Shown here: in pieces, positions 3,807-18,790 of the stretch
Position numbering within the stretch: the stretch's first letter is position 1
Layout: every line of letters begins with the position of its first letter
Source of the DNA: Myxococcales bacterium
GTDB lineage: Bacteria > UBA10199 > 2-02-FULL-44-16 > JAAZCA01
Reading direction: 5' to 3'
Length of the DNA stretch: 64,000 bases
Assembly: GCA_012513515.1 (NCBI GenBank)
Contig: JAAZCA010000009.1
Location: 1-64,000, forward strand
The notes under the pieces: generated by a model
Database searches by the model: none
Told to the model about the DNA's origin: nothing
Seen by the model: the letters and a program-made list of their open reading frames with translations, nothing else
Made by a program: the position numbers and the translations under genes

Positions 3807-3849
3807 GGGAGAAACTAGAAGCTAGATGCTAGAAGCGAGAAGTGAGATA
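3807..3849. repeat. Heptad array, left arm of the four-helix cassette
   Basis: About six tandem 7-mers on the plus strand: AGAAACT, AGAAGCT, AGATGCT, AGAAGCG, AGAAGTG, AGATAG. It lies between the stop of the four-helix gene and the start of the regulator. Its complement matches the array at 4229-4264 closely, so the two form inverted arms. Confidence 0.85.
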
Positions 3850-3850
3850 G

Positions 3851-4228
3851 TCATTTATAAGTACACCATTTATCGTGAAGAGCAAAAAGCATCTTCCCGA
3901 CTTCGTCATATTGTTGAGAATAGTAATTGTATTTTTCAGAATCGATATAATTGCACCGGAAGGAAAACTCCAGCCAAACCATGGTTTCTTCACATGATCC
4001 GGAGGAATCAATCAAATGGCGTTTAAAGATATTTTCAAAAGTTCTCTTAGCCCATCCTTCAGCTATGTTTGCAGGTATCGACCTTGAGGCCCTTCTGATC
4101 TGATCGGTCAGCCCGTACTTTTCCTCTCTTGGAAAAGTGCTTGTAAGCCGAAAAAGCTCCATCGCAAGATCAAATGATTTTGTATAAACTATCAAATCTC
4201 TGTAAGTTTTAATCTTTTCGCGTGGCAT
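3851..4228 (-). CDS. Four-helix bundle protein (S23/IVS-encoded protein family)
   Basis: A 125-residue protein with the family signature: KIKTYRDLIVYTKSFDLAMEL near the N-terminus, then GLTDQIRRASRSIPANIAEG (residues 40-59), the most conserved stretch. The family (PF05635-type) is best known from intervening sequences inserted in 23S rRNA genes of Leptospira and others, and is related in fold to the Avd protein of diversity-generating retroelements. Here there is no rRNA and no reverse transcriptase. The gene sits between two inverted heptad arrays (3807-3849 and 4229-4264) that touch its stop and start codons, so it looks like cargo of a small repeat-bounded cassette. Function unknown; nucleic acid binding is often assumed. 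Confidence 0.88.
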   Translation of the reverse strand: MPREKIKTYRDLIVYTKSFDLAMELFRLTSTFPREEKYGLTDQIRRASRSIPANIAEGWAKRTFENIFKRHLIDSSGSCEETMVWLEFSFRCNYIDSEKYNYYSQQYDEVGKMLFALHDKWCTYK

Positions 4229-4264
4229 CTTTCTAGCTTCTAACTTCTAGATTCTAGCTTCTGA
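4229..4264. repeat. Heptad array, right arm of the four-helix cassette
   Basis: Tandem 7-mers on the minus strand (AGAAGCT, AGAATCT, AGAAGTT, AGAAGCT, AGAAAG) running right up to the ATG of the four-helix gene. They are inverted relative to 3807-3849; on the plus strand CTTCTAG-nn-TCTAGCTTCT is shared with the complement of the left arm. Confidence 0.85.
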
Positions 4265-4371
4265 TTTAAAACACGCTACCGCCCATATGAGCATCTGGGT
4301 AGATGCGCACTTGCAAGGAACTAATTGATTTTACTACATTTTTTAGAATAAAATCCTTATCCGACAAGAAT

Positions 4372-4484: not shown

Positions 4485-4952
4485 TGAATAACGGAAAAGA
4501 GGCTCCCGGGGCCCATCTTTCAAGGTACGGTGTCATTTGCGGGTTACGGCCCGCAAATGCACCTCCGCTCTCGATCGGCGTAGCATAACAACCATGGATA
4601 CGCCGATCTCCGAGAGGCCCTTGAAAGATGGGCCCCTAGCGCCTCTTCTTTTCCGTTATTTAAGATGGGCAGTGTTTGATTTCGATGGTTTTGATGGGGT
4701 TCCCCTGTAGGAGACATTGGCGCGTCTACGAGACCGACCGTATTCGGAAGTCAAAAATCAGATCGCTTTCCTGATTTGGAGGCCGACAGCGGAGGACATC
4801 CAAATCAGCTTAAAGCGACTGATTTATGACGACGGATAGGGAGGCGAAGTGCGCCCGGTCGACGAAGGGGGAACCCCGTCAAAAGAGAAGTGAATGCGGG
4901 ACCTCATTATAATTGGTTTTCAGAACTGTTTGATCAAATCTTGATTTGTACA
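4485..4952. ncRNA. Structured ~466-bp direct repeat, copy 1 (two hairpin domains)
   Basis: Domain 1 (4487-4660): outer arms AATAACGGAAAAG and GGGGCCCATCTTTCAAGG pair with CCTTGAAAGATGGGCCCC and CTTTTCCGTTATT. They enclose a perfect 10-bp hairpin CATTTGCGGG/CCCGCAAATG with a 6-nt loop (4534-4559), and a second hairpin CTCTC+GATCGGCGTA / TACGCCGATC+GAGAG (4568-4616). Domain 2 (4689-4884): TTTTGATGGGGTTCCCC pairs with GGGGAACCCCGTCAAAA (one G-U). It encloses AAATCAGATCGCTTT with AAAGCGACTGATTT and, inside that, CTGATTTGGA with TCCAAATCAG. No open frame is convincing. A transcribed structured RNA is the favoured reading; a DNA-level hairpin element is the alternative. I recognise no named RNA family. 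Strand is not determined. Confidence 0.6.
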
Positions 4953-5085
4953 GACAATCGCCTTAGAAGCGGCAAGAAACTGTTTCGCACATTCGACTAT
5001 TTTAATTCAAGATCAGGATTTTGAAGAAGAAAGTTAAGGACCATCCAGACCGGATTTGAAATGAGGGTTTTCGTCAGTAGATTAT

Positions 5086-5123
5086 TATCCATATATATGG
5101 ACAATTATCCATATATACGGATA
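5086..5123. promoter_or_regulatory. Tandem HipB-type operator pair
   Basis: Two copies 20 bp apart. TATCC-ATATATAT-GGACA (5086-5103) matches the E. coli HipB operator consensus TATCC-N8-GGATA except one base, and TATCC-ATATATAC-GGATA (5106-5123) matches it fully. No hipB or hipA is in the window. A short open stretch begins at ATG 5126, three bases after the second site, but after about 19 codons it runs antisense into the NusG-like gene. It may be a remnant of a lost gene. Confidence 0.5.
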
Positions 5124-5182
5124 ATATGTCAAGCGCTGACTTCTTAGAATTGCTTTCAGAAATAGAACTTATCGATGATTGG

Positions 5183-5680
5183 TTATTCCTTCTCTATATC
5201 CGCGGCGGAGATATCGCATTTGATCTGATGATGCATGATCTCCAAAAGGACACGGACGCGGCCTGCTGCGGTGGCGGGTTTTTCGAGTATCCCGATGAGG
5301 TCCTTGAAGGCCCCGCGCCTGATGCGAACGGAGTCCCCCTTCTTCATCGTGAGCCCCTGTTCGATAACTCCCTCCCCACTCATGCGATCAAGTATCAGAT
5401 CCAGCATGCCGTCTGGAAGCGGAACCGGCTTCTCGCCGTCACCCAGTATTTTTCTGACCCCGCGTGTATAGCGAATCATCCTATGGAGGTTGGTGTCACT
5501 AAGATCGGCAGCCACGAATATATAAGATGGAAAGAGAGACTTCACGCGGCAGGTGGAGCAGCTCTTTCCCCGAACCGCACTGCGGATCTTCGGGGAGCAG
5601 GCCTCTATGCCCGCATTTTTAAGAAGGGCGCAAACACCGTCTTCCGACATAGGCTTTGTCTGGATCACGTACCATTCCAT
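5183..5680 (-). CDS. NusG paralog, RfaH/LoaP-like transcription antiterminator
   Basis: A 165-residue protein. The NGN domain covers roughly residues 1-105, opening MEWYVIQTKP and containing LFPSYIFV, the counterpart of the conserved FPGY segment of NusG. A C-terminal KOW domain (MKKGDSVRIRRGAFKDLIG) follows. Stand-alone NusG paralogs of this size (RfaH, UpxY, LoaP) bind paused RNA polymerase and let it read through long polysaccharide or biosynthetic operons. The start at 5680 was chosen because MEWYV is the family N-terminus; ATG 5689 is in frame three codons earlier. A perfect TATAAT lies 11 nt before the chosen ATG and there is no Shine-Dalgarno. The gene is alone on its strand between the two structured repeats. 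Confidence 0.85.
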   Translation of the reverse strand: MEWYVIQTKPMSEDGVCALLKNAGIEACSPKIRSAVRGKSCSTCRVKSLFPSYIFVAADLSDTNLHRMIRYTRGVRKILGDGEKPVPLPDGMLDLILDRMSGEGVIEQGLTMKKGDSVRIRRGAFKDLIGILEKPATAAGRVRVLLEIMHHQIKCDISAADIEKE

Positions 5681-5829
5681 AGGGATCATCTATTATATGA
5701 GAACGGTCAAAGCAATGTACAAATGAAGAGATTACGAAGGTTGAGGTTGAGTGTAACTATCAAAATATTTTACGACATATTTTATTTTCACTCATAATCA
5801 AATCTACAAGTAAGGATAATACCATTCAG

Positions 5830-6295
5830 TGAATAACGGAAAAGAGGCTCCCGGGGCACATCTTTCAAGGTACGGTGTCATTTGCGGGTTACGGCCCGCA
5901 AATGCACCTCCGCTCTCGATCGATGCATCTTATAGCCATTGACGCATCGATCTGCGAGAGGCCCTTGAAAGATGGGCCCCTAGCGCCTCTTCTTTTCCGT
6001 TATTCAGATGGGCAGTGTTTGATTTCGATGGTTTTGATGGGGTTCCCCTGTAGGAGACATTGGCGCGTTTACGAGACCGACCGTATCCGGAAGTCAAAAA
6101 TCAGATCGCTTTCCTGATTTGGAGGCCGACAGCGGAGGACATCCAAATCAGATGAAAGCGAATGATTTGTGACGACGGATAGGGAGGCGAAGTGCGCCCA
6201 GTCGACGAAGGGGGAACCCTGTCAAAACAGAAGCGAATGTAAGAGCCCATTGTAACTAGTTTTCAGAATTGCTCGATCAAATATTGATTTATACA
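5830..6295. ncRNA. Structured ~466-bp direct repeat, copy 2
   Basis: Same orientation and order as 4485-4952. Domain 1 is 5832-6004, domain 2 is 6032-6227. The hairpin b stem reads GATCGATGC (5918-5926) with GCATCGATC (5944-5952), while copy 1 has GATCGGCGTA with TACGCCGATC: three base pairs changed on both sides, so pairing was kept. The outer stem of domain 2 has C to T giving a G-U pair instead of a mismatch. The first copy-2 arm carries one mismatch (GGGGCACATC). An 80-codon open frame from 5875 runs through the hairpins and is considered fortuitous. Confidence 0.6.
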
Positions 6296-18642: not shown

Positions 18643-18790
18643 TCAGACGCATTTTATCAGACGGAGCGAGGTTTTTCGCCGGACTGAGGAAATAATAATA
18701 ATGATAACAGGAAGTTAAATTGCTCCGTCTGACAAAGTTAACTTGCTCCGTCTGACGAAAGTCTCTGTTCGTCTGACGAAAGTCTCTGTT
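18643..18790. repeat. 21-bp tandem repeat with inverted copies after the rubredoxin gene
   Basis: GTCTGACGAAAGTCTCTGTT is present twice in tandem (about 18750-18790, 21-bp period). It is preceded by two related TGCTCCGTCTGAC units (18721 and 18744), with inverted fragments TCAGACG (18643) and ATCAGACGGAGC (18657). The 21-bp period is three heptads. Confidence 0.7.

Follow-up and report, generated by a model that had tools for sequence, protein, structure and literature searches.

Two copies of a palindromic element in the window

The window, by which is meant the whole 64,000-nt stretch analysed (positions 1 to 64,000 of contig JAAZCA010000009.1, forward strand), carries two copies of an element that consists of a three-way-junction palindrome, domain 1 (D1), followed by a rod-like hairpin, domain 2 (D2). 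An antiterminator gene lies between the copies, and both rods fall within a direct repeat whose 293-nt and 93-nt blocks are 92% and 99% identical at a spacing of 1343-1345.

4485..4661, plus strand: D1, copy 1, a three-way-junction palindrome that lies 5′ of the rod and has inverted ends of its own, TGAATAACGGAAAAGA; model match 4520-4632 (R3 105.2 bits, E 7.5e-38)
4689..4884, plus strand: rod (D2), copy 1; model core 4716-4861 (R2 141.6 bits, E 7.9e-40)
4750..4830, plus strand: rod helix 4, 20 bp, flanked by the apical stem on one side and by the GAA/GA internal loop (4747-4749 with 4831-4832) on the other
4771..4808, plus strand: rod helix 5, 10 bp (4771-4780 with 4799-4808)
4781..4798, plus strand: rod apical loop GGCCGACAGCGGAGGACA
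4885..4952, plus strand: right outer arm of copy 1, ending GATTTGTACA
5183-5689, minus strand: RfaH/LoaP/UpxY-related antiterminator gene
5830..6004, plus strand: D1, copy 2; model match 5865-5976
6032..6227, plus strand: rod (D2), copy 2; model core 6059-6204 (R2 144.7 bits, E 8.6e-41)
6228..6295, plus strand: right outer arm of copy 2, ending GATTTATACA, placed by sequence reading and the direct repeat

A link between the element and the antiterminator gene was considered and discarded, since the genes next to other copies do not belong to any recurrent family. Other repeats are found nearby: a strong tandem palindrome, TTATCCATATATATGGACAATTATCCATATATACGGATAA, lies at 5083-5126 by the 3′ end of the antiterminator gene, and a short dispersed repeat, CTAGAAGCTAGATGCTAGAAGCGAGAAG, occurs in both orientations at 2370-2448, 2808-2886, 3812-3850 and 4225-4267, around sugar-nucleotide and four-helix-bundle genes.

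Fold of the rod

The first-pass annotation described the rod as a stem of 17 positions with two further stems nested inside it, and each of these can be read in the sequence. The outer stem pairs TTTTGATGGGGTTCCCC (4689-4705) with GGGGAACCCCGTCAAAA (4868-4884) through 16 Watson-Crick pairs and one T.G, the nested stem pairs AAATCAGATCGCTTT (4755-4769) with AAAGCGACTGATTT (4812-4825) around one bulged A, and the innermost stem joins CTGATTTGGA (4771-4780) exactly to TCCAAATCAG (4799-4808). The C-to-T change reported for copy 2 (6032-6227) is also present and leaves two G.T wobbles in its outer stem; the same copy has lost one inner pair (CTGATTT to ATGATTT), which was absent from that description. 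From the tip, the rod comprises the apical loop, the 10-bp helix, the 20-bp helix, the GAA/GA internal loop, a short helix, a second GA-rich internal loop, a GC-rich helix and the outer stem, together 196 nt to which the outer arms are added.

Against dinucleotide shuffles, copy 1 folds at -104.4 kcal/mol (z -9.8) and copy 2 at -102.6 kcal/mol (z -11.6), values equalled by none of 200 shuffles in either case, and the entire 4485-4920 stretch reaches z -12.7 (0 of 100 shuffles). The reverse strand of the rod folds well too (z -6.4), as does the rod strand folded as DNA (z -8.6); since this is expected of a near-palindrome, energy alone cannot tell which strand or which polymer is folded. The earlier opinion that the element is neither a simple terminator nor a REP agrees with a terminator scan that returned no terminator-like site within either rod, and with the size of the rod, which is far bigger than a REP palindrome of 20-40 bp.

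Distribution and covariation of the rod family

In the host genome BLAST recovers seven rod copies and fragments, and two other genomes give weak matches, one of them to D1 only. A covariance model built on nine copies (R1) has matches in 13 of the 46 genomes of the class, and a second built on 54 matches (R2) has matches in 16 of the 46, with 59 matches in G012, 26 in G017, 17 in G018, 14 in G031, 10 in G003, 9 in G013 and 7 in the host. When 385 genomes were searched with R2 (E 1e-6, eight candidates scored per genome), all 16 positives were class members and none was found among the at least 339 genomes outside the class; a phylum-wide search gave the same number of genomes (46) as the class. 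The taxonomy of the carriers is based on valyl-tRNA synthetase relatives and on identical match coordinates, the latter equating G001 with JAJZQH01 (bacterium SKS1.bin41) and G021 with JAUYJH01 (Deltaproteobacteria bacterium C24_metabat.bin.128). There was no match to the apical-loop motif in a scan of genome contigs, none in phage and plasmid collections and none in exact-motif scans of viral collections, and literature searches outside subscription journals returned no description of this hairpin family. So far, all matches to this hairpin element family come from one lineage of uncultured bacteria.

The best-conserved part of the rod is the apical loop, which reads YGAC..GGARGA in alignments A2 and A5 and is 17-20 nt long in 51 of 54 rows. 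The two helices below it are fixed in length and, at least for helix 5, free in sequence: helix 5 has 96.3% of its cells paired, a change on both sides in 9 of its 10 pairs and a 5′ strand of 10 nt in 53 of 54 rows, and helix 4 has 96.2% of its cells paired, a change on both sides in 19 of its 20 pairs and a 5′ strand of 21 nt, bulged base included, in 49 of 54 rows. This rigid head (apical loop, two helix lengths and internal loops) is kept in nine families of the class, and the outer stem sequence varies among genomes and often among copies as well.

Over the whole of alignment A5, in which all 54 rows were counted (48 sources; weaker and opposite-strand matches were left out by the E-value limit and the choice of sources), 92.1% of cells are paired and both sides change in 43 of 46 pairs, with 593 such cells where shuffles average 171 and slid controls do not exceed 108. 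The fit of A5 to the structure biases these counts in its favour; the nine-copy MAFFT alignment, in which both sides change in 17 of 55 pairs, points the same way. In the weak G003 matches the stems have been swapped wholesale with pairing retained. Homologs that keep only part of the stems, the outcome named in advance as contrary to the proposed structure, were not what was seen: all core stems are kept, through double changes.

The element as a composite of modules

From the presence of two domains in one 466-bp unit, the first-pass annotation had suggested that the element was a large structured RNA. That suggestion is not supported, as D1 is a separate family with rod neighbours in at least 7 of its 87 matches. 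These 87 matches to the D1 model (R3) are spread over 13 of the 46 genomes, and the pairs with a rod within about 150 bp comprise both window copies, 4 of 17 matches in G012 and 1 of 5 in G013, a lower bound that leaves uncounted D1 relatives, diverged in sequence, that adjoin D2 in G021 (supported by BLAST) and G022 (recognised by fold only). All seven listed pairs have D1 on the 5′ side of the rod and on the same strand. D1 occurs without the rod in four genomes (G008, G010, G019 and G036), and the rod occurs without an R3 match in seven (G001, G003, G018, G022, G023, G031 and G044). There are 17 copies of D1 in G038 and 14 in G036, and because G036 has no rod match, D1 is itself a multi-copy family.

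What stands beside the rod also changes. At host loci L005 and L006 the rods lack D1 and lie within a longer palindrome ending TGTACAAATC...GATTTGTACA; the left partner of the right outer arm is present at these loci, and in the window copies D1 stands in place of that left partner. In G012, the site 5′ of the rod is filled by D1, by a reversed second rod or by a third head (D3), and the joining centre is the palindrome CTGCAAATATTTGCAG or a variant of it. Within 382 kb of this genome 37 of 50 long palindromes form one similarity cluster, and identical inverted ends are borne by different heads. The independence of D1 and the rod, together with the exchange of heads, indicates that the 466-bp unit is a composite of modules. 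The rod is probably a head that can be exchanged for others in a family of hairpin-shaped mobile DNA elements with dispersed copies, and not half of one big RNA.

Two further repeats were noticed in the course of these comparisons. An unrelated repeat, TGTCATTGCGAG...CTCGCAATGACA, lies within the heads of palindromic elements in G012 (L293 3258-3475 and L305 7922-8434), and another palindrome family, with ends like GGGNACNTCTAAAAA, is found at L309 2711-2834 in G012 and at about 1308-1445 of host L007, where it adjoins a rod.

Base pairs, arm evolution and the case for RNA

A new structured RNA family is an unlikely explanation. On this reading the rod would be transcribed, with its conserved apical loop and GA internal loops acting in trans or within messages, and would spread as a passenger or as an RNA-based element. 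The very strong covariation backs the helices as it would in a structured RNA, although arm copying can yield the same pattern. The constant helix lengths and the conserved, GA-containing internal loops count against a DNA reading, since RNA with tertiary structure shows them too. Large ornate RNAs such as GOLLD, ROOL and OLE share with the rod a large covarying fold in bacteria (PMC12286853), whereas the rod family is multi-copy and dispersed, with few G-U pairs, no promoter-length common upstream stretch and no Rfam match.

The base pairs themselves are informative in two ways. G-U is scarce, at 29 of 1611 cells (1.8%) in the variable inner helices and 98 of 2455 (4.0%) overall, compared with 94 of 928 (10.1%) in the RNase P RNA obtained from 12 of the 13 rod-bearing genomes that were searched; with variable pairs only, the figures are 28 of 1341 and 24 of 396. 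G-U nevertheless outnumbers A-C in the stems (89 against 36 in the outer stems of the 107 copies with well-aligned arms, and 102 against 48 in another count, arm alignments scoring below 24 being excluded from both), as it does in RNase P RNA (94 against 20). This asymmetry marks the plus strand as the folded one and is expected of RNA too; it also argues against pure arm copying of double-stranded DNA, which would not give it.

The two arms of a stem evolve in concert, indels included, which weighs against RNA. In G018 arm lengths correlate (r 0.92) over the 15 of 17 copies with recognisable ends; L165 and L170 were omitted because their ends were unrecognised, and L172 was kept, although its arms have 8 mismatches and its position close to the start of a contig makes an assembly chimera possible. 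In G012 the two arms of one copy agree at 98.4% along about 30 nt, without a gap in any of 24 copies, and by one global measure arm identity is 79% within copies and 60% between copies. Template switching has been described as able to create and maintain perfect hairpins with the loop retained (PMC8794818) and to homogenise the arms of inverted repeats (PMC8794818; PMC8604942). Its prediction that G-C and U-A should be enriched on the 5′ arm gave a mixed result, with G:C at 1.69 and T:A at 1.35 over the 107 copies and G:C below 1 in the host, G001, G003 and G013.

The surroundings of the rod also speak against RNA. Conservation among G018 copies extends about 14 nt to the 5′ side of the hairpin (CAGCACAGTGGTA) and about 40 nt to its 3′ side, with unique sequence beyond, and 14 nt leaves no room for a common upstream promoter. 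At the gathering score of Rfam 15 the sole match in the window is a tRNA, and the 16 loci with relatives have none; weak matches in the window (E up to 10) cluster around 5015-5127, none of them within the rods. Matches to the reverse transcriptase family PF00078 are absent from the host, G003, G012, G013, G017, G018, G031 and G038, which makes spread via a host-encoded reverse transcriptase unlikely there; spread by reverse transcription was rejected because the host and most rod-bearing genomes have no PF00078 match (6 of 20 genomes have one). At the level of sequence comparison, the few G-U pairs, the concerted arms and the lack of a promoter-length common upstream stretch in G018 lead us to favour DNA over RNA, though the rod may have a role as RNA.

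Insertion sites, ends and mobility

The presence of the element varies at orthologous sites. G021 carries a rod together with a D1 relative between two genes that we take, from reading the aligned sequence, to be murG and murC, and G036, G026 and G017 have both genes without such a palindrome. At a second site, the flanks of an intergenic rod in G022 stand close together in G027, G018 and G032: a short spacer separates them in G032, an unrelated palindrome in G018, and in G027 a palindrome whose outer stem is similar but bears a Y-shaped head. The outer stems under the D2 head of G022 and the Y head of G027 differ by indels and one substitution that are mirrored in both arms, an observation from a single site.

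The elements have terminal inverted repeats, exemplified by the 46-nt and 88-nt arms at host loci L026 and L027 and by the 50 palindromes in the G012 stretches. Candidate target duplications, a weak signal, flank 3 of these 50 palindromes in 382 kb, against 0.8 expected; one element with GTAATGCC ends has an 8-bp flanking direct repeat, and two more with similar ends have near-matches. Copies show no preferred orientation with respect to GC skew (7 of 20, p 0.26, with 4 of 24 matches omitted for weak skew). No gene family recurs next to rod copies in the loci examined, where ORF clusters are common to at most 4 loci and several of them are ORFs overlapping the rod, and no autonomous parent element was seen there.

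The inverted ends, the 8-bp repeat with its near-matches and the presence or absence at orthologous sites recall bacterial MITEs, which are likewise short and gene-less. An ordinary MITE, meaning an insertion sequence that has lost its interior, has inverted repeats of unusual length, is moved by a DDE transposase and folds only as a by-product of those repeats, is nonetheless improbable: a by-product fold would not hold the apical loop, the lengths of two helices and the internal loops over nine families while all ends and stems change, and no parent element was seen. The rod family also departs from MITEs in that its heads and ends are exchangeable modules, its ends differ by genome and duplications are rarely visible.

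REPINs and BIMEs with RAYT transposases resemble the rod element in being intergenic, high in copy number, hairpin-forming, often arranged as inverted pairs and non-autonomous (PMC3116915 and PMC3733652), whereas the rod element is several times longer, has a rigid head with internal loops and stems that are very different among copies, and had no link to the RAYT genes examined. Mobilisation by a RAYT tyrosine transposase is accordingly very improbable, despite Y1 transposases in most of these genomes, divergent rod pairs that resemble REP doublets and a GGTAG preceding most G018 hairpins: the rod is about 200 nt against 20-40 bp for a REP (PMC3733652), Y1 genes occur in 18 of 20 genomes tested, including 6 of 7 rod-less ones, no rod adjoins the two host loci and one G013 locus examined, and, of the unpaired end tags GTAG and CGTC that characterise REPs, GTAG is missing from host and G012 copies. 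Repeats like TCAGACGGAGC lie near the Y1 (RAYT-like) transposase genes of the host (L120 and L121) and at 18652-18760 of the window, and these repeats are probably the host's true REP family.

A probable mobile DNA element with a conserved head

Copies are dispersed, relatives lack one of the insertions, G-U pairs are few and no promoter-length stretch is common to the sequence upstream, all of which favours a mobile DNA element. The rod is probably the conserved head of a non-autonomous palindromic mobile DNA element, and one module of a combinatorial family with heads D1, D2 and D3 and many stems and inverted ends. The folded molecule would be DNA: in single-stranded form the element would fold into a long hairpin, and its head (apical loop, 10-bp and 20-bp helices and GA internal loops) would be held by selection, most likely as a shape read by an enzyme supplied in trans, the putative agent that moves the family. 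Stems may drift freely, with pairing restored each time one arm serves as the template for the other, whether by template switching at replication or by hairpin-primed synthesis. As arm copying alone would erase fixed internal loops, the head must, we infer, be under selection. Apart from the constant helix lengths and internal loops discussed above, several observations count against the mobile-DNA reading, namely that no transposase is tied to the family, that target duplications are rare, that strand bias is absent and that the G022/G027 comparison concerns one site.

Parvovirus-type terminal hairpins and hairpin-primed synthesis offer a parallel, in that a Y-shaped and a rod-shaped hairpin occur side by side and the arms must stay complementary. 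The resemblance carries no claim of membership, and unlike such systems the rod copies have no recurrent gene beside them. Both are mentioned in PMC8794818. A bolder proposal, which we put forward tentatively and regard as rather unlikely, is that the family is bacterial selfish DNA of a new kind, hairpin-headed and processed as folded single strands, in which exchangeable Y and rod heads would serve as recognition structures and hairpin-primed copying would renew the arms, making the process a cellular counterpart of rolling-hairpin replication.

Implications

Covariation is standard evidence for a functional RNA. The rod family has overwhelming covariation, yet its few G-U pairs, mirrored indels and a stem kept under a changed head suggest copying between DNA arms. 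The family would make a natural test case for telling selection on RNA apart from arm copying, and it cautions those who look for new RNAs in uncultured bacteria. Should the heads prove to be recognised as folded DNA, this lineage would hold a mobilising enzyme yet to be described.
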